Shown in pieces: positions 41,431 through 53,723 of a stretch of 64,000 bases of DNA. Numbering within the stretch: position 1 is the stretch's first letter; every line of letters starts with the position of its first letter. The position numbers were made by a program, and so were the translations under genes. Source of the DNA: Mycolicibacterium sp. TY81. GTDB lineage: Bacteria; Actinomycetota; Actinomycetes; Mycobacteriales; Mycobacteriaceae. A model generated the notes under the pieces. It was not told the origin of the DNA. It saw nothing but the letters and a program-made list of their open reading frames with translations, and made no database searches. Location: NCBI RefSeq assembly GCF_018326285.1, contig NZ_AP023362.1, forward strand, positions 2,790,001 through 2,854,000, in the 5' to 3' direction.

Positions 41431-42618
41431 CTACCTTCCCAACCCGGCACTGGCCAGTGCGGCCTGACGCGCCCGCTCGACCGCGGCCGGCAGCACGGCC
41501 AGCGCGGCATCGATGTCGGCGTCAGAACTGGTGTGCCCCAACGAAAATCGGAGTGATCCACGGGCACTCGCCGGATCGGCGCCCATCGCGATCAAGACGT
41601 GTGACGGCTGTGCGACGCCCGCCGTGCAGGCCGAGCCCGTCGAGCATTCGATGCCCTTGGCGTCCAGCAGCATCAGCAGGGCATCGCCTTCGCAGCCACG
41701 AAAAGTGAAGTGCGCGTTGCCCGGAAGCCGGTTCTCGCCGGTGCCACCGTTGAGCACGACGTCGTCGATACCCGACAGCACACCGTCGACCAGCCGGTCG
41801 CGCAAGGCGCCGATCCGGGTGCGGTACCCGTCCAGGCCCTCCACCGCGACGCGTGCGGCGGCCGCCATGGCCACCACGCCCGCGACATCCGGTGTGCCCG
41901 AACGCACGTCACGCTCCTGGCCGCCGCCGTGCAGCAGCGGCACGCACGCGACATCACGGCGCAGCAGCAGGGCGCCGACGCCGGTGGGGCCACCGAACTT
42001 GTGTGCCGCCACGCTCATGGCGGACAGCCCGCTCGCGGCGAAATCGACGGCCACCGCACCGATCGCCTGGATGGCATCACTGTGGATCGGCACGCCGAAT
42101 TCGGCAGCGACAGCGGCCAATTCAGCGACCGGCTGGATGGTGCCGACCTCGTTGTTGGCCCACATCACGCTGACGAGCGCGACATCGTCGTGGGATTCGA
42201 GAATCTCGCGCAGGGCTTGGGCGGACGTGGCGCCGGTGGCGTCCACGGGCAGCCAGGTCACCTCCGCACCCTCGTGTTCGACGAGCCACTCGACGGCGTC
42301 GAGCACGGCATGGTGCTCGATGGGCGACGTCACGATCCGGCGGCGTCCCGGACAGCTGTCGCGGCGGGCCCAGAAGATGCCCTTGACCGCCAGGTTGTCA
42401 CTCTCGGTACCGCCGGCCGTGAAGATCACCTCGGAGGGCCGGGCGCCCAGCTGTTGGGCCAGGGACTCGCGGGCCTCCTCCATCCGGCGCCGCGCGGCCC
42501 GCCCCGACGTGTGCAGCGACGACGCGTTGCCGCCGGCCGCCAGGACCGCCGTCATCGCCTCGATGGCAGCGGGCTGCATCGGGGTCGTGGCGGCGTGGTC
42601 CAGATATGCGGGGCTCAT
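41431..42618 (-). CDS. iscS: Cysteine desulfurase
   Basis: A 395-residue PLP enzyme that removes sulfur from cysteine for Fe-S clusters and tRNA thiolation. It starts [11 protein letters not shown], the PLP lysine is K207 ([12 protein letters not shown]) and the persulfide cysteine is C331 in [11 protein letters not shown]. HxD and EHHAVL segments are in place. It is adjacent to mnmA (2-bp gap), as in M. tuberculosis Rv3025c-Rv3024c. The start ATG 42618 is well placed. Confidence 0.96.
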
Positions 42619-42651
42619 GGCCTGTCCAGGATACCGGCCGGGCCAAACCGG

Positions 42652-43506
42652 TCAGGCTGCCAGCGCGCGCCCGTGAACAGCGGCGACGGGCAGCGGACCC
42701 ACCTGGTGCACCGCGGCCTGGCAGCGGCCGGCCAGATCACGCCGGTCGGTACCGGGCAATTGCAGCGACTGCACCTGCATGTGGCACACCGTCAGCTTGG
42801 CGGTGATGACGCGTTTGATCGACGTCAGCAGCGAATCGTCGCCGATGAACGCCGGGATGGTGGACTGCGCGCCGTTGCGGTGCCGGTAGGTCAGCTGCAG
42901 CGGCTGGACGGGACGTCCGGTGTCGATGGCGGCCTGGAACATCGCCGGCGCGAAGGTGCCGTGCCCCAGGCCGCACCACGTGGTGCCCTCCGGGAACGCC
43001 ACGACGGTTTGACCTGCGGAGAGCCGGTCCCCGACGGTGCGGACGACGTCGGGCAGGCCGCGCAGGCTGTGCCGGTCGATCGGGATGACCTTGAGCAGCC
43101 GGGCCACGAACCCGAGTGCGGGCCACTCGATGAGATCGGCACGCGCCACGAAAGAGCCGGGCATCACGGCGCCGATCGCGAAGATGTCGACCCAGGACAC
43201 GTGCCCGGCGACCACCAGCACGCCGCTCAGGTTGCGGATGGGGCCACCGGAAACCGTGATCCGCACGCCCAGGCACCGCAACATCAGGCGGCAGTACAGG
43301 CGCTGGATGCGGGACTTGCCGGGCAGTGGCACCGCGAGCAGCGGCAGCGCCGGCAGCAGCAGCATCGTCATGATCAGCCGGACGGTCGTGCGCAGCACGA
43401 CGACGAACGGGCGGCTGATGTGCACGGAGTCGACCCGGATGCAGCTGGCGTCGCACGACGCCTTCGGCAGCCAGGCGTGCTCCGCCGCCGTCACCGGCGT
43501 GGTCAC
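42652..43506 (-). CDS. PlsC-like 1-acylglycerol-3-phosphate acyltransferase (Rv3026c-like)
   Basis: A 284-residue membrane-associated acyltransferase. A hydrophobic segment (LIMTMLLLPALPLLAVPL, about 42-60) precedes the catalytic HX4D motif in AGHVSWVDIFA. FVARADLIEWP, FPEGTTWCGLG and a C-terminal basic part follow. GTG 43506 overlaps the stop of the GNAT gene (GTGA), so the two are coupled. The pair GNAT + PlsC resembles OlsB + OlsA, which make lyso-ornithine lipid and ornithine lipid. Whether mycobacteria do the same with Rv3027c/Rv3026c is not established. Confidence 0.86.
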   Translation of the reverse strand: MTTPVTAAEHAWLPKASCDASCIRVDSVHISRPFVVVLRTTVRLIMTMLLLPALPLLAVPLPGKSRIQRLYCRLMLRCLGVRITVSGGPIRNLSGVLVVAGHVSWVDIFAIGAVMPGSFVARADLIEWPALGFVARLLKVIPIDRHSLRGLPDVVRTVGDRLSAGQTVVAFPEGTTWCGLGHGTFAPAMFQAAIDTGRPVQPLQLTYRHRNGAQSTIPAFIGDDSLLTSIKRVITAKLTVCHMQVQSLQLPGTDRRDLAGRCQAAVHQVGPLPVAAVHGRALAA

Positions 43507-44336
43507 TGCGCGGCCTTGTCGGTCGCGGCAGCCGCCGAACGCAGCCGGGTCAGGTACCGGACGTCGGCTTCGCGCTTGTCCAGCAGGGCCGGGAAGTCGC
43601 CGACACCGAAGTCGGGGTCGTAGGCCGGGTCGCCGCACACCTTGGCGCCGAGACGCAGGTAGCCGCGCATCAGCGGCGGCACCGTCACGCGGGCCGGCGG
43701 CTCGATGTCGTCGAGCAGCTTGCCGTCGATGATCACCGGGCGGTACGGGCGCACCTTGTACTCCGAGGCGTGCCGCTTGTTGACGAAGTCGCGGACGCCG
43801 CGAATCTGACTGGCCGGGGCTTCGTCGGGGCTGCCTTGGATGGGTACCGACACGCAGCCGGTGACGTAGTCGTAGCCGCTGTGGTCCAGGTAGGCCAGGA
43901 TGCCGCCCCACATGAGCAGCACGACGGCGCCGTTGCGGTGGTCTGCGCGCACCACGGCGCGCCCCATCTCCACCAGCGACGGGCGCAGGCTGTCGAGCGC
44001 GCTGACGTCGAATTCCGTTGCGGTGTACAGCCCGCCCGCGGCGATGGCGCCGGGCGGAGGCAGCATGCGGTAGCAGCCGACGTACTCGCCGGTGTTGTCG
44101 TCCCGGACCAACAGGTGGTCGCAGAACTCGTCGAATCGGTCGGCGTCCCGGCCACTTTCGAAACCGGGGCTGTCGTCGGTGAGGGTGTAGCCCGGCTCCG
44201 AGGTGAACACGTGGTGACGAAGCCGTTGCGCGGCCTCGATGTGTTCCCGGTCGGCCGACAGCAGCAGCGTGTAGCGCGGGGTGCCGGTCGATGAACTGGT
44301 GTCGTCAGGGGCGATGAGTACAGAACTAGTGCTCAT
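43503..44336 (-). CDS. GNAT / hemolysin-like acyltransferase (Rv3027c-like, OlsB-like)
   Basis: A 277-residue protein of the acyl-homoserine-lactone-synthase-like GNAT group. It has RLRHHVFTSEPGY, DRFDEFCDHLLVRD, VGCYRMLPP, and then a domain with EMGRAVVRADHRNGAVVLLMWGGI. OlsB relatives N-acylate ornithine using acyl-ACP. The start at ATG 44336 (MSTSSVLIAPDD) matches the M. tuberculosis homologue as I remember it, although the ribosome-binding site is weak. It is followed by coupled plsC. The 134 bp before it (44337-44470) show no gene. Confidence 0.82.
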   Translation of the reverse strand: MSTSSVLIAPDDTSSSTGTPRYTLLLSADREHIEAAQRLRHHVFTSEPGYTLTDDSPGFESGRDADRFDEFCDHLLVRDDNTGEYVGCYRMLPPPGAIAAGGLYTATEFDVSALDSLRPSLVEMGRAVVRADHRNGAVVLLMWGGILAYLDHSGYDYVTGCVSVPIQGSPDEAPASQIRGVRDFVNKRHASEYKVRPYRPVIIDGKLLDDIEPPARVTVPPLMRGYLRLGAKVCGDPAYDPDFGVGDFPALLDKREADVRYLTRLRSAAAATDKAAQ

Positions 44337-44470
44337 GTTCTGCACGGTGACGGAGCCGTTCGGCGCGGCGGCATCAATCACGTAACGCGTCGATGACCGG
44401 TTGCGAAACATCACGGTCCATTGCATTCGGCGCATGATGCCGCGATGAGGAGCCGCTTCTGACAAGGGTT

Positions 44471-45019
44471 TCAGGCACTGTCCCGGTGTGCCAGCGCAAC
44501 GCGCAGCTGCCGCCGGCCGCGGGAGACCCGCGACATCACCGTGCCCATGGGCACTCCCATGAGCCCGGCGGTCTCGGCGTAGGTGTAGCCCTGAACCTCC
44601 ACATAGAACAGCGCGGTCCGCGCGCCTTCGGACAGCTCCCCGAACGCGGCCTCGACATCTCCGTCGGCCATGAGGTCGAGCAGCTCGACCTCTGCCGAAC
44701 GGCGGGCAGTCGACTGTTCGTGGCCGGCCGCGGTGATCGCCTCCAGCGGCACCTCCGGTGGGCGCGACGCCCGATGGCGATGTCTGCTGACCCACCGATT
44801 GTGCAAGATGCGGAAAAGCCAAGCGTTGAGATTGGTGCCCTGCTGAAACGACCCGAACCCCTGATACGCGTGTAACAAGGTGTCCTGCAAGAGATCTTCG
44901 GCGTCGGCTTCGCAGCGTGTCAGCCGGCGGGCGCCGCGGCCGAGGGCGTCGAGCAACGGCACGGCATCCGCGACAAACCGGGCCGCAAGGTCAGCGTCCG
45001 GCACCGGCGCTGCCGTCAC
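44471..45019 (-). CDS. ECF sigma factor
   Basis: A 182-residue extracytoplasmic-function sigma factor. Region 2 reads AEDLLQDTLLHAYQGF and NLNAWLFRILHNRWVSRHRHR. Region 4 reads EGARTALFYVEVQGYTYAETAGLMGVPMGTVMSRVSRGRRQLR. It resembles the SigH/RpoE group. No anti-sigma factor gene is next to it, which is unusual for that group. GTG 45019 has AGGGGAG 8 bp upstream. A conserved 22-bp sequence (45094-45115), shared with three other nearby operons, lies 75 bp before the start. Confidence 0.9.
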   Translation of the reverse strand: MTAAPVPDADLAARFVADAVPLLDALGRGARRLTRCEADAEDLLQDTLLHAYQGFGSFQQGTNLNAWLFRILHNRWVSRHRHRASRPPEVPLEAITAAGHEQSTARRSAEVELLDLMADGDVEAAFGELSEGARTALFYVEVQGYTYAETAGLMGVPMGTVMSRVSRGRRQLRVALAHRDSA

Positions 45020-45093
45020 GATCGAAACTCCCCTCGCCTGTGACCGCGCAGGGTGCGCCGCCGAACTCAGACTCGCCGGAAAGCGCCTGTGGC

Positions 45094-45115
45094 GAACCAT
45101 TGAAAGTTCGTGGTC
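45094..45115 (-). promoter_or_regulatory. Shared 22-bp regulatory element, site 1
   Basis: This is one of four copies of the plus-strand pattern GRACC-N3-GRMASTYCGTRGTC. It lies 75 bp upstream of the sigma factor start and 115 bp upstream of the MBL gene on the other strand, so it may serve both. Confidence 0.7.
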
Positions 45116-45230
45116 GGTACCGGAATCCGTGGTGCGCCCTGCGATGGATGACTTCGCGCGCCGGCCCGCGTTCAACCCCGCACAGGGTCAAATCCATGAC
45201 GCTGCCGAATGTGTGCCAGAAGGAGACAAC

Positions 45231-46145
45231 GTGAGCTTGGACAACATTTCCCACCTCGGTCAGACGGGGCTCGACGAGTTGGTTCCGTCGCGTTACGCGG
45301 TGCCGGTCGGCGATATCGAGGTACTGGTCATCAGCGACGGCGTACTGCCGATCACGGCGTCGACGCTGGGCACCAATGTCCCGCCCGCCGAACTGACGGG
45401 GTGGCTGGACGACAACTTCCTGCCGCCCGAGATCGTCGACTGGCCGCTGAACATCGTGGTGGTCCGCAGCGGCGACCAGACGATCCTGGTCGACGCCGGA
45501 CTCGGGCTGGAGTTCCCGGACTTCCCGCGCGCCGGACAGACGGTCCAGCGGCTGGAGGCAGCTGGTGTCGATCTCGCCTCGGTGACCGACGTCGTGCTGA
45601 CCCACATGCACATGGACCACGTCGGCGGACTGATCACCGAGGGCGTGAAGGAACGGTTCCGGCCGGACCTGCGCGTGCATGCGGCCACCGCCGAGGCCGA
45701 GTTCTGGGCGGCACCCGACTTCTCCCGGACGGTCATGCCGCAGCCGATCCCCGACGTGCTGCGGCGCTCGGCCACGCAGTTCCTGACCGACTACAGCGGC
45801 CAATTGCGGACGTTCGAGACGGACTACGAGGTCGCGCCGGGCGTGCTCGTCTCGCGTACGGGTGGTCACACGCCCGGGCACAGCGTGGTCCGCCTCGAAT
45901 CGCGCGGCGAGAAGCTGACCTTCGCCGGCGACGCCGTGTTCGCCCCCGGCTTCGATAATCCGGAGTGGCAGAACGGCTTCGAGCACGACCCCGAGGAGGC
46001 GGCCCGCGTCCGCATCCGCCTGCTGCGCGAGATCGCGGCCACCGGCGAGGCCCTCGTCGCCACGCACCTGCCGTTCCCGTCGGTGTGCCACGTGGCGGCC
46101 GTCGGCGACGCTTTCCGGTGCGTGCCCGCGACCTGGGACTACTGA
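45231..46145 (+). CDS. MBL-fold metallo-hydrolase
   Basis: A 304-residue metallo-beta-lactamase-fold hydrolase. The zinc motif is LTHMHMDHVGGL. Later ligands are in RTGGHTPGHSVV and FAGDAVF, with LVATHLPFPSVCH at the end. It resembles the lactonase/organophosphate-hydrolase-like branch, but the substrate cannot be fixed. The GTG at 45231 has AGGAG 5 bp upstream. The open frame upstream is antisense to the sigma factor. It is divergent from the sigma gene and ends in a strong terminator. Confidence 0.87.
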   Translation: MSLDNISHLGQTGLDELVPSRYAVPVGDIEVLVISDGVLPITASTLGTNVPPAELTGWLDDNFLPPEIVDWPLNIVVVRSGDQTILVDAGLGLEFPDFPRAGQTVQRLEAAGVDLASVTDVVLTHMHMDHVGGLITEGVKERFRPDLRVHAATAEAEFWAAPDFSRTVMPQPIPDVLRRSATQFLTDYSGQLRTFETDYEVAPGVLVSRTGGHTPGHSVVRLESRGEKLTFAGDAVFAPGFDNPEWQNGFEHDPEEAARVRIRLLREIAATGEALVATHLPFPSVCHVAAVGDAFRCVPATWDY

Positions 46146-46160
46146 CCGCTGAGCACGAGA

Positions 46161-46194
46161 ACGGCCCCCGGACCTGTTGTCCGGGGGCCGTTTT
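46161..46194. terminator. Strong intrinsic terminator after the MBL gene
   Basis: A perfect 13-bp GC-rich stem (46161-46173 with 46179-46191) and CTGTT loop, followed by TTT. It lies 16 bp after the MBL stop and 16 bp from the end of the converging SDR gene. The opposite strand lacks a T-run of that quality. Confidence 0.93.
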
Positions 46195-46209
46195 CGGTGA
46201 GGCGGGCGG

Positions 46210-46929
46210 TCAGGCAGCCGCGCCGCCGCCATCGGCATGCAGCGTCGACCCGGTGACGAAGCTCGACCGTGGCGACGCCAGGAACAGCACCGCCTGCGCG
46301 ATCTCGGCCGGCTGTGCCGTCCGGCCCAGCGGCAGCATGCGCCCCAGTTCGTCGTTGGTGTCGCCCCATTCGGCAGCCACCCCCGGCGTCGCCGTCGGCC
46401 CGGGAGCCACGCTGTTGACACGCACACCGTGCGGCCCGAATTCTGTTGCCCACGTGCGGGTCAACGATTCCAGCGCAGCCTTGGACGCGCTGTAACTGGA
46501 TGCCCCCGGCACGCCCTTGAACGCGACCATGGACGTGACATTGACGATGCTCCCCCGGCCCCGGCGCAGCATGCCAGGGACCAGAGCCGCCACCAGGAAA
46601 TAAGCGCCGCGCACGTTGGTGTCGAAGGTGGACTCGAAGGTCGCCACGTCCTGCTCCACGGTCAGTGCACCCGGGAAGCTGGCGGCGTTGTTGACCACGA
46701 TGTCGACATCACCGCATTGGCGGGCAAGGCTTTTCACTGATTCCAGGTCGGCCAGGTCCGCGGGGATGAACCGCACCCCGAGTTCGGCGGCCGCCGCGGC
46801 GCCACGGTCGGCGGAGCGTCCGGTGATGATCACCGTCGCACCTTCGGCCGCCAGCAGGCGCGCGGTCTCGAACCCGATGCCGGCCGTCCCGCCCGTCACG
46901 AGCGCGGTCAGCCCGGTCAGCTCTGTCAC
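46210..46929 (-). CDS. Short-chain dehydrogenase/reductase
   Basis: A 239-residue classical SDR. Cofactor motif VTGGTAGIGFETARLL, NNAAS, catalytic Ser in VNVTSMVA, YSASK with Tyr and Lys, and VRVNSVAPGPTATP. Probably NAD(P)-dependent oxidation or reduction of a small alcohol or ketone, substrate unknown. The GTG start overlaps the stop of the NmrA-like gene (GTGA), so both are made from one transcript whose promoter carries regulatory site 2. Confidence 0.92.
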   Translation of the reverse strand: MTELTGLTALVTGGTAGIGFETARLLAAEGATVIITGRSADRGAAAAAELGVRFIPADLADLESVKSLARQCGDVDIVVNNAASFPGALTVEQDVATFESTFDTNVRGAYFLVAALVPGMLRRGRGSIVNVTSMVAFKGVPGASSYSASKAALESLTRTWATEFGPHGVRVNSVAPGPTATPGVAAEWGDTNDELGRMLPLGRTAQPAEIAQAVLFLASPRSSFVTGSTLHADGGGAAA

Positions 46930-47669
46930 CGGGCCGCCAGCCAGTCCGCCAGGTGCAGGTCCGAGATGATGGCATCGCCGCTGGTGACCAAACCGGTGTC
47001 GCCGACCTTGGTGCCGAAGTAGGTGGCTGCCGGGTCGACGACGATCGGCAGGCTCTCACCGCGGTGGGCCAGCGCCAGTTTGGCCAGGCCCGCGAACGTC
47101 AGTTTGTCCGGCCCGCCGATGTTCACGATCCCGTTGGCGGGTGCGTCCTGGGCGACGCGGGCCACTTCGGCGGCGACGTCGGCGCCGGCGATCGGCTGGA
47201 TGAGGCCCTCGGGCACCCGCACTTCGCCGTCGACGGTCAGCGATGCGGTGATCGCGTCGGCGAACTCATGGAACTGGGTGGCCCGCACGATCGTGTAGGG
47301 CAGCCCCGACTCGGTGATGATGCGCTCCTGGGCGACCTTGGCCCGCATGTAGCCGCTGTCGGGCAGACCGTCGCAGCCGACGATGGACAGTGCCACGTAG
47401 TGGCCGACGCCGGTCTCCTTCGCGGCGGCCACCAAGTTGGTCGCCGACCGGGTGAAGAAGTCCAGTACCGGGCCGTCGGAGAAGTCCGGCGAGTTGACGA
47501 CGTCGACCAGCACGTCGGAGCCGGCGAGGGCCTCGGTCAGGCCCGCGCCGGTGAGGACATCGGCACCTGAGTCCCGAGAAGCCGCCACGGTCTGGTGACC
47601 GGCCTCGTTAAGCAGGGCCACGACCTTCGAACCGATCTGGCCGCTGGCACCCATCACAGTGATCTTCAT
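46926..47669 (-). CDS. NmrA-like NAD(P)-binding protein
   Basis: A 247-residue atypical SDR (NAD(P)H-binding/NmrA type). It starts MKITVMGASGQIGSKV, the Rossmann glycine motif. VGHYVALSIVGCDGLPDSGYMRAKVAQE and LPYTIVRATQFHEF are typical of the group. Such proteins may be redox sensors or reductases. GAAAGGG lies about 8 bp before ATG 47669. It is the first gene of the two-gene unit, and the 22-bp element at 47735-47756 lies 66 bp upstream. Confidence 0.88.
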   Translation of the reverse strand: MKITVMGASGQIGSKVVALLNEAGHQTVAASRDSGADVLTGAGLTEALAGSDVLVDVVNSPDFSDGPVLDFFTRSATNLVAAAKETGVGHYVALSIVGCDGLPDSGYMRAKVAQERIITESGLPYTIVRATQFHEFADAITASLTVDGEVRVPEGLIQPIAGADVAAEVARVAQDAPANGIVNIGGPDKLTFAGLAKLALAHRGESLPIVVDPAATYFGTKVGDTGLVTSGDAIISDLHLADWLAAR

Positions 47670-47734
47670 CAGACACACCCTTTCGAATTGTTTCGGTTGT
47701 GCGGCTTCCACACTCGCAGTCGCCGCAGGCCCGC

Positions 47735-47756
47735 GAACCCCGGAAAGTCCGTAGTC
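47735..47756 (-). promoter_or_regulatory. Shared 22-bp regulatory element, site 2
   Basis: Second copy of the GRACC...CGTRGTC pattern, here ending CCGTAGTC. It lies in the 96-bp gap between the nitroreductase end and the NmrA-like gene, 66 bp before the latter's ATG. Confidence 0.7.
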
Positions 47757-47765
47757 CGCCGGCGG

Positions 47766-48425
47766 TCAGTCCAGGAACACCACGTTGTCGCCGATCGGAT
47801 TGCGCGGCGTGTCAAGGTGGTTCGCCGGAAACGCCGGGTCGGCGTAGCCGATCGAGATGCCGCACAGGATCGTGAGTTCCTCGGGAATGCCGAGCTGCGC
47901 ACGCAGCACCTCGGGATACAAGCTGATCGACACCTGGACACAGCTGCCGAGGCCCCGCTCGGTCAATGCCAGCATCAGCGTCTGCAGGAACATCCCGACA
48001 CCCATCGCGTCGACCGAGCCGAAATCGCGGTGCATGCACACCACCCCGGCGACGGGCGCCCGGAAGAATTCCCAATTGCGCCGCTGCGCCGCCCAGCGGC
48101 CCGCCGCGTCGCCGCGTTCGATGCCCATCGCGCCGTACACCAGGGCACCGCTCTCGCGGCGCAGATGCGCGAACCGGGGCGGCAGACCGGCCGAGCCCAC
48201 CTCAGGCGGCGTCGTATCGACGGCCGCGAGCAGCGCCTCGACCAATCGTGCGCGCCGTTCCCCGGTGACGAGGTAGACGTGCCACGGCTGGGTGTTGGAG
48301 TTCGACGGTGCCCGGATCGCCAGCTCCAACGCCTCGTCGAGCAGCTCCCGCGGAACCGGCTTGTCCGGCAGGAACATCCGTGCGGACCGGCGCGACCGGA
48401 CGATGTCGCCGAACCCGGTCGTCAT
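47766..48425 (-). CDS. Nitroreductase family protein
   Basis: A 219-residue FMN-dependent nitroreductase-fold protein. The N-terminal FMN-phosphate motif is IVRSRRSARMF, followed by RAPSNSNTQPWHVYLV. The C-terminal LTERGLGSCVQVS and GIPEELTILCGISIGYAD are typical. Likely reduces nitro, quinone or enone compounds using NAD(P)H. ATG 48425 overlaps the cupin stop as ATGA, making this the second gene of a coupled pair. Confidence 0.92.
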   Translation of the reverse strand: MTTGFGDIVRSRRSARMFLPDKPVPRELLDEALELAIRAPSNSNTQPWHVYLVTGERRARLVEALLAAVDTTPPEVGSAGLPPRFAHLRRESGALVYGAMGIERGDAAGRWAAQRRNWEFFRAPVAGVVCMHRDFGSVDAMGVGMFLQTLMLALTERGLGSCVQVSISLYPEVLRAQLGIPEELTILCGISIGYADPAFPANHLDTPRNPIGDNVVFLD

Positions 48426-48820
48426 CGGACTCGCCGGTCCTTGCGGGTTTCGAGTTCGTCGTCATCGACGACGACGAGCATCGGCACGCCGGGCGTGCAG
48501 ATCATCGTCACGAGAAAGCGCAGCCGGACGTCGGTGCGGTTGTTGGCGTCCGAGTAGTGGATGACGTCGCCACCCGGCTCCCAGAATGCCTCCCCCGCTT
48601 TGATCACCCGCGGCGCTTCACCCTCCAACTCGAAGAGCATCTCGCCTTCCAAGACATAACCGAACGACGGTCCACCGGGATGACGATGCGGCGGAGCGCC
48701 CGCGCTCCCCGCCGGCCACTCGATGATCGACGTCATCACGTGGGCGTCGGCCGGGATGAACGGCGGCGTCACGGTCTGGATGGTGGTGATCGCCTTCATC
48801 AGGTCGGCACTATCGAACAT
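48422..48820 (-). CDS. Cupin-domain protein
   Basis: A 132-residue single cupin. Motif 1 contains PHRHPGGPSFGYVLEGEMLFELEGE, with His ligands and Glu; motif 2 contains WEPGGDVIHYSDANN. A metal in the barrel is likely. Role may be dioxygenase-like or ligand sensing. The ATG has GAGGAG 6 bp upstream (48826-48831 region). It is the promoter-proximal gene of the cupin-nitroreductase pair, with regulatory site 3 at 92 bp upstream. Confidence 0.9.
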   Translation of the reverse strand: MFDSADLMKAITTIQTVTPPFIPADAHVMTSIIEWPAGSAGAPPHRHPGGPSFGYVLEGEMLFELEGEAPRVIKAGEAFWEPGGDVIHYSDANNRTDVRLRFLVTMICTPGVPMLVVVDDDELETRKDRRVR

Positions 48821-48884
48821 TGTTGCTCCTCAGTTGAATCCAGGCCTGACCGATCGGAATGCCGACAGGCAGGACGCTCGGTAT

Positions 48885-49775
48885 TCAGCTTCGTCGCGAT
48901 GCGGCCTGGTGGGACCCTTGGAACTCCGTAGTCGAAACCGGGTGGAGCCACCGGGCGATATTGGCGACGTAGTCCTTGAAGACCGCCAGCCGCGACGGGT
49001 CGTCCTTGATCTGTGTGCCGGGAAGATCGGACACGAACGACGGTGCCCCCGCGGCGAGGTCCCAGTTGTAATCGGCGAAGTGGTGGAAGGTGGACTCGGC
49101 GACCACGCGGCCCATCGGCCGCCCGGCCGGACATCGTTCACCGTCGACCACGACGGCGAGGTTGAAGTGCCGGCCGGTCGCGGTACTGCGGCCCCTCGCG
49201 ATTGCCTGGGCGTACGGACCTTTCGCAGTCACCATGCCCTCATGCGGATGCGCGGGGAACCATTCGATGTGCCCGCTGGCGGTGTGGTTCGTTCTCAGCA
49301 GTTCGTGTGGCTCGCCGTCGACCAACACCGGCTGGTAGTCGCCGTTGGCACCGGAGTGGTAGTTGGGCCACGAGATGTGCGGATTGTCCTGGTCGTCGCA
49401 CAGCTCGCGAGGGTCGACGGTCTCGTCGTGGAATTCGTTGACCACGCCCAGGATTCCGAGGCGGTTCAGGCAGCACCCCAGGTCCTGGTGATCGCGCGCG
49501 GTGAGCACCCCGCCGCCGCGCTCGCGGAACCGGCGGATGCCGTCGGCGTCGGCGGCCGTCAGACCGTCGCCGACGTCGACCGCCAGCAGCCACAGCTGGT
49601 CGAAATCGAGCTCGTCCAGACGGGCCAGTACCGGGTCGTCGGTGAGACATGACCGATTGCGTGCGGTCACGTGGTGACCGCACGCTCTCAGTTCGTCCGC
49701 GACCATCGAGAACCGGCTGACGTCCCAATCGTCGGCGCACTCGGTGATCGTCGTCTGCAACAGGATGCGGGACAC
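48885..49775 (-). CDS. ThuA/GATase-like protein of unknown function
   Basis: A 296-residue protein with features of the ThuA (class I glutamine-amidotransferase-like) fold. It starts [33 protein letters not shown], then [44 protein letters not shown]. There is a late His-rich part ([11 protein letters not shown]). The amidotransferase catalytic triad is not clear. The start is GTG 49775. Its 3' coding end contains regulatory site 3 of the next operon, and site 4 lies 65 bp upstream. Function unknown. Confidence 0.72.
48912..48933 (-). promoter_or_regulatory. Shared 22-bp regulatory element, site 3
   Basis: Third copy, ending TCCGTAGTC. It lies inside the last codons of the ThuA-like gene (encoding VSTTEFQG), 92 bp before the cupin ATG. 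Conservation of this sequence at a coding end, at the right place for the next operon, favours a regulatory role. Confidence 0.65.
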
Positions 49776-49839
49776 AGAACTCTTTCATGTCAAGGGTTTT
49801 CGCGGAACGCGATCAGCATGGCCGATGGCGGACCGCGCC

Positions 49840-49861
49840 GGACCCTTGACAGTTCGTGGTC
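49840..49861 (-). promoter_or_regulatory. Shared 22-bp regulatory element, site 4
   Basis: Fourth copy, ending TTCGTGGTC. It lies between the LAL regulator stop and the ThuA-like start, 65 bp before the latter, giving that gene its own promoter rather than read-through. Confidence 0.7.
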
Positions 49862-49872
49862 TGTGGCGCGAG

Positions 49873-52662
49873 TCAGCCGGCGGGGAACAGCGTGCGCAAC
49901 TGCCGCCGCGACGTGATGCCGAGCTTGACGAAGACCTTGCGCAGGTGCCATTCGACGGTGTGCGTGCTGATGAACAGCTGGGCACCGATCTCCTGGTTGG
50001 TCAGACCGGCGGCGGCAAGTTCGGCGATCTGGGCCTCTTGCGTCGTCAGCTCGTCACCCGAACTGACCGGCTCTTTGCGGACCTTCTTCCCGGCGGCGAT
50101 CAGCTCGCGTCGCGTGCGCTCCGCGAACGCCTCGGCTCCCATCCGGTTGAACATCTCGAATGCCGCGCCGAGGTGCTCCCGCGCCGCCACGCGCCGGTTC
50201 ATGCGGCGCAGCCATTCCCCGTAACACAGATGGGCCCGGGCCAGCAGGAACACGACGCCGGTACGCCCGAGTCGTTCGATGGCCTCGGCGTACCGGACGT
50301 CGGCGTCTTCGTCGTCGGCCACCAGGGCGCGCGCGTACGCGAACGCCCCCAGCCCCCAGTCGGTGCCGCTGGTACCCGCACGTCCGGCCAGCTGCTGCGC
50401 AGCCCACTGCCCGGTTTCCTCGTCGCCGATGCGCGTCGCCGCTTCGACGAGCTCGATCAGACCCCAGCAGTAGAAGCCCAGATCGTCGAACTGGCAACAG
50501 TTCCTGGCCGCCGCGAACGCTTCGGCGTAGCGCCCGAGTCCGTTGTAGACGACAGCCGAAAGAAACCCCGTGACCCCGAGTACCCGGCCTTCGCCGCGGG
50601 CCGCCGCGTCGGCCGCGGCGGACTCGATGAGGCCCACGGCGTCGACCGCGACCCCGCGAAACGCCGCCAACGACAGCGAGTGGTACCGCAACGGGGCGTA
50701 GTCGGTCGCCGCCGAGATGACGGCGGCCTCGGCGATAAGTGCTGCCGCCGTGTCGAATTCGCCTGCGAGCAGATGAACGCCGGCCCCGAACGCGAGTGCG
50801 GGCGGAAGTACGGCCAAGGCGCCGGCGTCGCGCGCCTGGCGTATCGCGGCGGTGGCCAGCAGCCGGTGGATGCCGTCATCCCAAATCTCGCCGACGGCCG
50901 ACTCCTGAATGATGGCCAGGCCCAACGGCATCCACCGCAGGAACTGACCGTCGGCGTCCTGTGCGTGCCGGCACATGAGCTCCAGCGCGGCGCGCATCTG
51001 TTCGGCACCACCGCCGGTGACGATCCGGCTCGCCACCCCGCTCAGCAGCAGGTCCACCGGCCGATGCAACGCGGCCGCATCTCCGAGCGCCGCGCCCGCG
51101 GCCTCGGCCACCTGCACCACCATGTCCGTCCCACCGAGCCGGCCCGCATACATCGCCGCGGCGAGCGCCTCGAGGTATGTCTCGTGGGCCAGCCCGGCGT
51201 CGAGCCTCTCGAGGTCGCGTGCCGCGGCGAGCAGCTTCTGCACGGCGTCGCTGAGCGGCGGCACGCCGGGCCCGCCGCCGCGACTGCGGGCGAACTGCAT
51301 CTCCGCCCGCAACCGATCCACTTGCGCCCGTTGCAGATCCGTCAGTGGCCCGAGTTCGGCGATCGCCAGGAGCTCATACGCCGCAGCCGGTGCCGCCGCG
51401 TCGCGCTTGGCCTGTGCCGCCGCGAGCGCGCGTGCCGCACGCAAGGCCGGGTCCGCGGTGAGCACCGTCGCACGTTCCAGGAAGGCCGCGGCCGCGGCGA
51501 CGCCGCCCTTGCTCTGCGCCCGTCCGGCGGATCGCTCCAGATCCGCGGCCACTGCGTCGTCGGGCCCCGCCGCCGCGTGCGCGAAATGCCACGCGCGGCG
51601 GTCCGGATCCTGCCGCGGGTCGGTGGCCTCGGCCAGCGCCCGATGTACCGATCGGCGCGCGTTCACATCGGCCGCACGGTAGACAGCCGACCGCATCAAC
51701 GGATGGCCGAAACGCACACGCGCGCCGAACTCGATGAGTCCGGCCGCCTCGGCCGGCGCCAGCGCGCTGACGGACAGTCCCAAAATCGTTGCGGCCCGCT
51801 GGAACAGCGCCGCATCCCCAACCGAGTCGGCGGCGGCGAGAAACAACAGTTGCTGGGCCGCCGGTGGCAGCGCCTCGACGCGACGCCGGTAGCCGTCCTC
51901 GACCTGCCGCGTCACACTGCGCCCGGTGCCCATGTTCCAGAAGCCACCGGCGAGCTCGGCGGCAGAAACACTGCGGGGAACCTCGAGGAGCGCCAACGGG
52001 ATTCCCCGCGTCTCGGCGACCACACGGTCGCGCACCCGTTCGTCGACCCGACCCAACAGCACCGAGTCGAGCAGGTCGCGGGCGTCGGCATCGGACAGCC
52101 CGGTGACCGTCAGCTCCGGCAGCGGCCCCAGCGCCTCTGCTCCGGCGTCACGGGCCGCGAACAACAGCACAACGGGCTCGGCGAGGAAGCGGCGCGCCAC
52201 GAAGGCAAGGGTCTGCAGCGATACCTGATCGAGCCACTGCGCGTCGTCGACCACACACAACAGCGGCTGGTCCGCCGTCGCGGCGGCCAACAGGCTCAGC
52301 ACCGCGAGGCCCACCAGGAAACGGTCCGGCGCCGCCCCGGCGCCGCGGCCGAAGGCCACGTCCAATGCCCCGCGCTGCGGCGTCGGCAATTCGTCGAGGT
52401 GCTGCATCAGCGGCGCGCACAGCTGCTGCAGGCCCGCGTACGCCAGCTCCATATCGGACTCGACGCCCGTCACCTGAATACAGCGGAATCCGTCGGCAGC
52501 GTCCACCGTATGCCGCAGCAGCGCAGTCTTCCCGACCCCCGCCTCGCCGCGCAGGACGAGGACCTGACTGCTGCCCGAGCGCGCGGCCGACAACAGGCCG
52601 CGCAGCGTCGTGATCTCTCTGTCGCGGCCACGCAAGACCGGCGCGCGATCCTGGCTCGCCAT
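49873..52662 (-). CDS. LuxR-type LAL regulator with AAA ATPase domain
   Basis: A 929-residue large ATP-binding LuxR-family regulator. An N-terminal STAND-type ATPase (Walker [14 protein letters not shown], Walker [13 protein letters not shown]) is followed by a long helical TPR-like sensor region. The C-terminal LuxR helix-turn-helix reads [41 protein letters not shown]. Such proteins activate targets when a ligand releases ATPase-mediated inhibition. ATG 52662 was chosen; GTG 52671 is possible. It adjoins the four-operon group carrying the 22-bp element and is the obvious candidate to bind it. Confidence 0.93.
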
Positions 52663-52708
52663 CGGCACCACCGTTTCTGGTTGCTGTCAGCAGTCCTGCC
52701 CAGACACA

Positions 52709-52742
52709 AAGGTGCCCCAAAACCGAAGTTTTGGGGCACCTT
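52709..52742 (-). terminator. Terminator of etfBA
   Basis: A perfect 15-bp stem (52709-52723 with 52728-52742) around a CGAA loop, rich in A/T next to the loop. It lies 24 bp after the etfA stop and 46 bp upstream of the LAL regulator. The T content around the stem is only moderate, so it may also act as a transcript-end stabiliser. Confidence 0.85.
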
Positions 52743-52766
52743 CGCTTCTGCTCACGCAGAGAAAAA

Positions 52767-53723
52767 TCAGCCCTTGCGAGCCTTGATGGCGTCGGTCAGC
52801 TGCGGGGCGACCTGGAACAGGTCACCCACGATGCCGAGGTCGGCGATCTCGAAGATCGGGGCCTCTTCGTCCTTGTTGACCGCGACGATGGTCTTGGACG
52901 TCTGCATGCCGGCGCGGTGCTGGATGGCGCCCGAGATACCGAGGGCGATGTACAGCTGCGGGGCAACGGTCTTACCGGTCTGGCCGACCTGGAACTGACC
53001 GCCGTAGTAGCCCGAGTCGACCGCGGCACGCGAAGCACCGACAGCACCGCCGAGCGAGTCGGCCAGGGCCTCGACGACCGCGAAGTTGTCGGCGCTGCCG
53101 ACACCACGGCCACCGGCGACCACGACGCTGGCCTCGGTGAGCTCCGGACGGTCACCGGCGACGGCCGGCTCGCGCGAGGTGATCTTGGTGGCGTTCTCGG
53201 CCTGGGCCGGAACCTCGACGTTGACGACCTCACCGGCGCCGTCGGCCGGGGCGGCCTCGACGGAACCCGGACGGACAGCGATCACCGGGAGCACGTCGTT
53301 GGCCTGCGCCTCGACGGTGTAAGCGCCACCGAAGATGCTGTGGACGGCGATGCCGCCGGCCTTGACGTCGACGACGTCGACCAGCAGGCCGGCACCCAGG
53401 CGGGCGGCCAGACGACCGGCGACCTCTTTGCCCTCGGTGCTGGCGACAGTCAGCACGGCGGCCGGGCCGGCGGACTCGACGAGAGCCTCCAGCACGTCGA
53501 CGGTCGGGGTGACCAGGTAGTTCGCCGCGTCAGCCGACTCTGCGACGTAGATCTTGGCCGCACCGGCGGCCTTGAGGGCGTCGGTCAGCGGCGCGGCGGT
53601 GCCGGGGGCACCCACCACAACTGCCGACGGCTCACCGAGCACACGGGCAGCGGTGATCAGTTCGGTGCTCACCTTCTTGAGGGCACCATCGGCGTGCTCG
53701 ACGAGCACAAGTACTTCAGCCAT
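52767..53723 (-). CDS. etfA: Electron transfer flavoprotein alpha subunit
   Basis: A 318-residue subunit of the FAD-containing ETF heterodimer that takes electrons from acyl-CoA dehydrogenases in beta-oxidation and hands them to a membrane oxidoreductase. The C-terminal FAD domain has [55 protein letters not shown] and [12 protein letters not shown], all hallmarks. It follows etfB by 46 bp, as in M. tuberculosis Rv3029c-Rv3028c. Confidence 0.97.

Follow-up and report, generated by a model that had tools for sequence, protein, structure and literature searches.

A 22-bp element ahead of four operons in Mycolicibacterium sp. TY81 and its predicted control by the adjacent LAL-type regulator

In a 64,000-nucleotide stretch of the Mycolicibacterium sp. 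TY81 genome (contig NZ_AP023362.1, positions 2,790,001 to 2,854,000; hereafter the window), four copies of one 22-bp element precede four neighbouring minus-strand units, which begin with genes for an extracytoplasmic function (ECF) sigma factor, an NmrA-like protein, a cupin and a ThuA-like protein. We propose, with a probability of roughly 0.8, that the four sites are activator-dependent promoters of a single regulon under the adjacent large ATP-binding regulator of the LuxR family (LAL, MalT-type). An initial annotation of the window had suggested an undescribed regulon and had left two candidates for the binder, the LAL regulator or the sigma factor, whose own promoter would then contain the element. 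The regulon is strongly supported by our analysis: across genomes, the sites go with the LAL gene and stand ahead of a recurring set of gene families. Between the two candidates, co-occurrence, the spacing of the promoter and the existence of site-bearing genomes without the ECF gene favour the LAL regulator and disfavour a sigma factor promoter.

Four copies of one element

The sites and the regulator gene are as follows (bits refer to the profile R1, described below).

45094..45115, minus strand: site 1, 22-bp element 5' of the ECF sigma gene, reading GACCACGAACTTTCAATGGTTC on the minus strand; 40.5 bits
47735..47756, minus strand: site 2, 22-bp element 5' of the NmrA gene and the short-chain dehydrogenase (SDR) gene; 46.8 bits
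48912..48933, minus strand: site 3, 22-bp element 5' of the cupin-nitroreductase pair, within the end of the ThuA-like open reading frame (ORF); 36.0 bits
49840..49861, minus strand: site 4, 22-bp element 5' of the ThuA-like gene, 11 bp past the LAL stop codon; 40.0 bits
49873..52671, minus strand: LAL regulator, 932 aa, with Walker A motif GEAGVGKT at residue 42, AAA_16 and GerE (874-925); proposed binder of the element

All four 22-mers lie where they had been reported and match GRACCNNNGRMASTYCGTRGTC with no mismatch; counted by eye, 13 of the 22 columns are identical throughout. They share one strand, each ahead of minus-strand genes, and the gaps to the start codons at 45019 (ECF, a GTG), 47669 (NmrA), 48820 (cupin) and 49775 (ThuA-like) are 74, 65, 91 and 64 bp, in keeping with the 65-92 bp given earlier. 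Site 3 is indeed located in coding sequence, inside the 3' end of the ThuA-like ORF (48885-49775), and four relatives (loci L152, L153, L155 and L170; loci and genomes are cited by our L and G numbers) likewise have a site near the end of their ThuA-like gene. The initial annotation regarded chance as a poor explanation, and we agree: the window holds five matches at up to three mismatches, a number reached in none of 100 dinucleotide shuffles (mean 0.82). In addition, an unguided repeat search of 44900-50100 returned these same four copies as its first family. Over the whole genome (6,467,391 bases) the pattern matched exactly at these four places only, with one more match at one mismatch. 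No Rfam family matched window positions 44000-53000 at its gathering score, that is, we found no known structured RNA element there.

Sites track the LAL gene across the genus

We then looked at 198 genomes of the genus, 108 of which contained the pattern at up to one mismatch. Thirty such matches, picked by the pattern alone, were fetched as loci. Twenty-six of them lay among gene families of the window cluster and 19 had an LAL gene within 1.5 kb; L052, L054 and L056 look like chance, and L059 is a good-looking site without any family match. These four and the incomplete locus L041 were left out, and the remaining 25 were aligned with the four window sites. The 29 sequences gave the sequence-only profile R1, which spans 61 bases (8 before the 22-mer, the 22-mer and 31 after it). 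Run over the TY81 genome, R1 scored the four window sites, which belong to its own training set, at 36-47 bits and the next best place at 13 bits. Genomes were called site-positive at E<=1e-3, under stricter filters that can lose weak sites.

The regulator itself agrees with the sequence definition of LAL proteins, taken from the available text of PMC3282765: it is large (932 aa), it has an N-terminal ATP-binding domain (AAA_16, E=9.5e-20) with a Walker A motif, and it carries a C-terminal LuxR-type helix-turn-helix (GerE, PF00196, E=4.2e-15). Close relatives at E<=1e-100, our definition of LAL-positive, were found in 127 of the 198 genomes. R1 sites occurred in 111 of these 127 genomes versus 2 of the 71 LAL-negative ones (Fisher test 6e-35, a guide only because the genomes are related). 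When the 26 genomes that had contributed to R1 training were removed, sites were still found in 85 of 101 LAL-positive genomes versus 2 of 71.

Locus-level data are consistent with this. Among 79 named LAL loci, drawn from the best 80 of 487 found, 59 had at least one site at E<=0.5 (87 sites in total) and 53 at E<=0.001 (74 sites). The sites share the strand of the LAL gene in 86 of the 87 cases, the exception being a weak site (L161, E=0.005) that faces a metallo-beta-lactamase (MBL)-fold gene. The LAL gene lies upstream on the same strand for 81 sites, 48 of which begin within 200 bp past its end. In G020 about 2.45 Mb separate the LAL gene from the site of an NmrA-cupin-nitroreductase unit; control there would therefore act in trans, and linkage is not the whole explanation. 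Furthermore, all 16 mycobacterial genomes whose fetched LAL locus lacked a site had strong sites elsewhere (best E from 2e-11 to 6e-7); judged by shared places, 8 of the 16 probably duplicate genomes of the 198-genome set.

The genes behind the sites recur as well. One of the 87 sites was dropped as duplicate or cut off, and for the remaining 86 the first gene encodes an ECF sigma factor (38 sites), a nitroreductase (14), a ThuA-like protein (12), NmrA (9), an MBL-fold hydrolase (5), a cupin (3) or an SDR (2). The hits in related genomes recur upstream of the same families: for 83 of the 86 sites a known target family is found no more than 200 bp away, and three have none of the ten window families that near. 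Several of the 86 sites equal or nearly copy training sites, related species recur among them and one (L212) was misplaced by the script; all were counted.

Among 251 genomes of the family, 13 had sites at E<=1e-3, all of them in the window's genus, one of 31 genera sampled; the same draw contained at least 8 genomes of that genus without a site and 218 further site-negative genomes. Four outgroup genomes (two Nocardia, Streptosporangium and Nonomuraea) yielded no site, with best E values of 0.07 to 0.24. Likewise, R1 found nothing in four loci of LAL relatives from Nocardia, Streptosporangium and Nonomuraea, nor did inspection by eye of stretches from three of them.

Several single loci deserve mention. 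Near distant LAL relatives (48-50% identity), a site can point away from the LAL gene (L248, L254). In Nocardia kruczakiae (L225, 8884-10150), cupin and ThuA-like genes come after an LAL relative of 53% identity but R1 has no site there, which may represent the same gene link with an operator that is different or lost. The co-occurrence is broken most clearly by G013, which has no LAL match at E<=1e-100 and yet, at L242 (5578-6107), a strong site that faces a cupin gene. We also tried the helix-turn-helix as a discriminator and rejected it: the recognition region is near-identical in loci with and without sites.

The element as part of a predicted promoter

The sequence of the element on the promoter strand is GACYACGRACTTTCMRGGGTYC. 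Across the 86 sites, the strongest columns are those within the 22-mer plus a downstream A and T four bases apart, each present in 79 of 86. Counted from the end of the 22-mer, this ANNNT has an offset of 20 nt in 79 of 86 sites and of 21 nt in 6 of 86, so that a -10-like hexamer [CG]ANNNT (SANNNT) starts 19 nt past the element. The motif stands at a fixed distance, as in a SigA-type -10 region, and conservation does not extend to the first T of TANNNT. In the 29-site alignment, neither the bases just 5' of the 22-mer nor those between it and the -10 are conserved.

A second positional signal comes from start codons. At nine of the 86 sites an ATG begins exactly 31 nt past the element, versus four or fewer at every other offset from 0 to 57. 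Inspection by eye of L045, L049, L050, L060 and L061 revealed an ATG or GTG at that spot which fits the start of the target gene. Leaderless genes are common in M. tuberculosis, where the -10 is TANNNT and a -35 consensus is absent, according to the accessible part of PMC3898074. Read against this precedent, the ATG peak and ANNNT would make the ATG position +1 and ANNNT the -10 core, and would put the 22-mer at about -53 to -32. The element is thus predicted to be part of the promoter itself, placed like the site of a class II activator; such sites have their centre around -42 and overlap the -35, which the predicted position would fit. The corresponding predictions in the window are:

45069..45074, minus strand: predicted -10 of site 1, GAGTCT; predicted start about 45062; leader 43 nt, up to the ECF start codon at 45019
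47710..47715, minus strand: predicted -10 of site 2, GAGTGT; predicted start about 47703; leader 34 nt
48887..48892, minus strand: predicted -10 of site 3, GAAGCT; predicted start about 48880; leader 60 nt
49815..49820, minus strand: predicted -10 of site 4, CATGCT; predicted start about 49808; leader 33 nt

The LAL regulator is the likely binder of the element. It would sense a ligand and bind ATP, then occupy GACYACGRACTTTCMRGGGTYC between about -53 and -32. RNA polymerase carrying the housekeeping sigma factor would be recruited, and this sigma factor would read the [CG]ANNNT -10 that starts 19 nt further on. As a result, small oxidoreductase and hydrolase operons would be switched on together with the ECF sigma gene, a target and perhaps a second tier. 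Direct binding, activation over repression, the use of sigma A, the ligand and the physiological role are all parts of this scheme that we infer.

An inverted repeat in the element was also considered. By eye, an imperfect CGGA-N3-TCCG can be drawn in the TTTCCGG version; it is absent from the TTTCAAGGG version and was rejected.

Weighing the alternatives

The element might instead be the ECF sigma factor's own promoter and mark an autoregulated sigma regulon. Self-control is frequent among ECF sigma factors, their genes stand first behind the sites more often than those of any other family (38 of 86), and the presence of sigma factor and site correlates. To quantify the latter, we used a strict list of ECF relatives (E<=1.1e-53, a cut-off of our choice that leaves out presumed SigH); weaker ECF matches, which we take to be SigH, occur in nearly every genome. 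Strict relatives were found in 63 genomes, 61 of which have sites. The strict cut-off misses some sigma genes beside sites (G012, G018, G141, G193 and G197), and a looser, hand-picked list was used in parallel. Sites are, however, not confined to genomes with the ECF gene: 52 of the 113 site-positive genomes lack a close ECF relative, 50 of them with the LAL gene, and under the looser list the numbers are 42 and 41. Conversely, every genome with both a strict ECF relative and a site also has the LAL gene; G013 is an exception under the looser list. The promoter geometry also appears to speak against this alternative. SANNNT starts 19 nt past the 22-mer. Spacers of ECF promoters are usually shorter (about 16-17), and the distance seems to suit an activator that works with a SigA-type -10 more readily than it suits an ECF promoter. 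In addition, the TANNNT -10 described in the available part of PMC3898074 has ANNNT at its core. We favour the LAL regulator because the sites track the LAL gene and often adjoin it, because genomes without the ECF gene keep their sites and because the spacing agrees better with activation at a SigA-type -10; we consider the ECF alternative improbable. With 50 of the 52 ECF-less site-positive genomes carrying the LAL gene, the ECF sigma factor is best read as a target of the regulon, apparently dispensable for keeping the sites.

A different regulator could bind the element, with the LAL gene a mere linked neighbour or itself a target. In L039 and L045 a site indeed precedes the LAL gene and points the same way, G013 has a site without a close LAL match, and our loci were mapped for the ten window families only, such that another recurrent regulator would escape. 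Against this, just 2 of the 113 site-positive genomes (G013 and G048) have no LAL match, and the association holds for far sites too, as in G020. We regard this explanation as very improbable. That the four copies are chance similarity or a mobile repeat is extremely unlikely in our judgement. It could draw on the frequency of the loose pattern, which at up to three mismatches has 122 matches genome-wide versus 75 for a reversed control; conservation across the genus, the fixed -10 offset, the orientation and the target families all speak against it, as do flanking and spacer bases that are not conserved in the 29-site alignment.

Several observations nevertheless weigh against control by the LAL regulator. 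Two LAL-negative genomes have a site, a strong one in G013 (E=7e-8) and a weaker one in G048 (E=2e-4). Conversely, 16 of the 127 LAL-positive genomes have none at E<=1e-3; in 14 of these the LAL match is itself weaker (E>1e-250), which leaves G114 and G153 with a close LAL gene and no site at that threshold. G114 contains weak sites only, of 15 and 13 bits, 5' of the ECF and nitroreductase genes. Sites and LAL gene are often adjacent, and linkage may explain part of their co-occurrence. The LAL helix-turn-helix is almost as conserved in siteless loci, and the Nocardia, Streptosporangium and Nonomuraea relatives have a similar one. Within the element, the right half does not repeat the left. 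Finally, genomes and sites are mutually related, and the counts are not independent. As for the search method, the loose pattern was discarded as a sole criterion: with its excess of matches at two to three mismatches it lacked specificity on its own and was uninformative.

Relation to known regulators

MalT of E. coli is a large ATP-binding regulator with a C-terminal LuxR helix-turn-helix that activates several operons from direct-repeat sites. Its targets are unrelated to those found here, and the MalT box was not seen in the element. MalT is named as the LAL prototype in the available text of PMC6099782 and PMC3282765. The closest parallel is TpdR of Rhodococcus jostii TMP1, which is likewise an LAL-type activator of an actinobacterium. 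As described in the accessible portion of PMC6099782, its promoter (PTTMP) contains two 15-bp direct repeats, one at -51 to -37 and overlapping the -35, a placement like that predicted for our element. The repeat TnnAAnnGCGGAnTC and CTACGGACT have a short CGGAnT core in common, and the remainder of the repeat differs by eye; two copies of TnnAAnnGCGGAnTC were not found in the element in the same comparison. The available text describes one TpdR operon, for tetramethylpyrazine breakdown, whereas several operons and an ECF sigma gene are involved here. The regulon would be an LAL/MalT-type activator regulon, with a predicted operator that does not match the TpdR repeat beyond the CGGAnT core.

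SCO0877 and SCO7173 of Streptomyces coelicolor are actinobacterial members of the same regulator class, pleiotropic in phosphate response and antibiotic production; the available part of PMC3282765 reports no common DNA element for them and calls LAL regulators poorly studied. Among the papers listed by searches of the open literature, none described a LAL or LuxR regulator with its DNA site in mycobacteria, nor does the accessible text of PMC3466318, which surveys the LuxR proteins of actinobacteria. Of 1,007 papers that contain one of the motif strings, the first 30 looked unrelated by title. Our analysis predicts, for a mycobacterial LAL regulator, an operator, transcription starts and a set of targets found again throughout the genus, and it would place an ECF sigma factor under an LAL activator. 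R1 can be used to annotate the regulon in other mycobacterial genomes.

Half-sites upstream of the element

Within 45 bp upstream of the element, an extra CYACGR was present at 38 of the 86 sites, versus 10 and 4 of 86 in two control stretches, with favoured half-site spacings of 7, 14 and 21 bp. In the window, site 1 alone has an upstream half-site within 60 bp; the other three have none.

45127..45132, minus strand: extra half-site CCACGG, 19 bp upstream of the half-site in site 1

These half-sites may resemble the direct repeats of the LAL operator of TpdR, as far as the available description of that operator goes. Literature on MadR as a source of the half-sites gave no help, judged by title (8 of 163). 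A more elaborate scheme, doubtful in our view, is that the LAL regulator reads a variable YACGGA array in 7-bp steps upstream of a composite -35/operator, with array length setting promoter strength. It would then head a two-tier cascade in which the ECF sigma factor is switched on and feeds a second gene set.

Predicted target genes and their neighbourhood

The genes of the cluster, with the predicted targets marked, are:

44471..45019, minus strand: ECF sigma factor, SigH-like, target; PF04542/PF08281, TIGR02947 below cut-off
45234..46145, plus strand: MBL-fold hydrolase, PF00753; divergent from the ECF gene, with no site ahead of it here and first behind a site in some relatives
46210..46929, minus strand: SDR, target; PF13561
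46926..47669, minus strand: NmrA-like NAD(P)-binding protein, target; PF13460/PF05368
47766..48425, minus strand: nitroreductase, target; PF00881, with NfnB (2wzv) among its nearest solved relatives
48422..48820, minus strand: cupin, target; PF07883
48885..49775, minus strand: ThuA-like protein, target; the name is that of the initial annotation

The ECF sigma factor is related to the SigH type (TIGR02947) at 163 bits, under the family cut-off of 251.55 bits. For the ThuA-like protein, no Pfam or NCBIfam family was found at E 0.001, and the best PDB sequence match had an E value of 0.59; it is 67-91% identical in 22 relatives, one of them from Nocardia. The nearest solved relatives of the MBL-fold hydrolase are a lactonase and a methyl parathion hydrolase. 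Together with NfnB for the nitroreductase, these relatives suggest a response to electrophiles or xenobiotics, a guess from the families only.

The cluster is bounded by an etfA gene on one side and an iscS-like gene on the other (window 41431-53723). In relatives (L249-L252, and L244 on the etfA side), the same place contains a site and a reduced version of the cluster, and the 8 kb fetched include no LAL gene. The etfA/iscS-like interval looks like a favoured spot for the regulon. In the close relatives L152 (9889-10758), L153 (9849-10757) and L170 (9850-10758), a second, more distant MBL hydrolase, 63-67% identical, is found behind the site inside the ThuA-like gene; it was not seen in the window cluster. 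Just 3' of the ECF gene, on the same strand, window positions 42652-44822 encode a GNAT protein (Acetyltransf_5, PF13444) and an acyltransferase (PF01553). The pair resembles, we presume, ornithine-lipid synthesis enzymes, and may be expressed by read-through from site 1.

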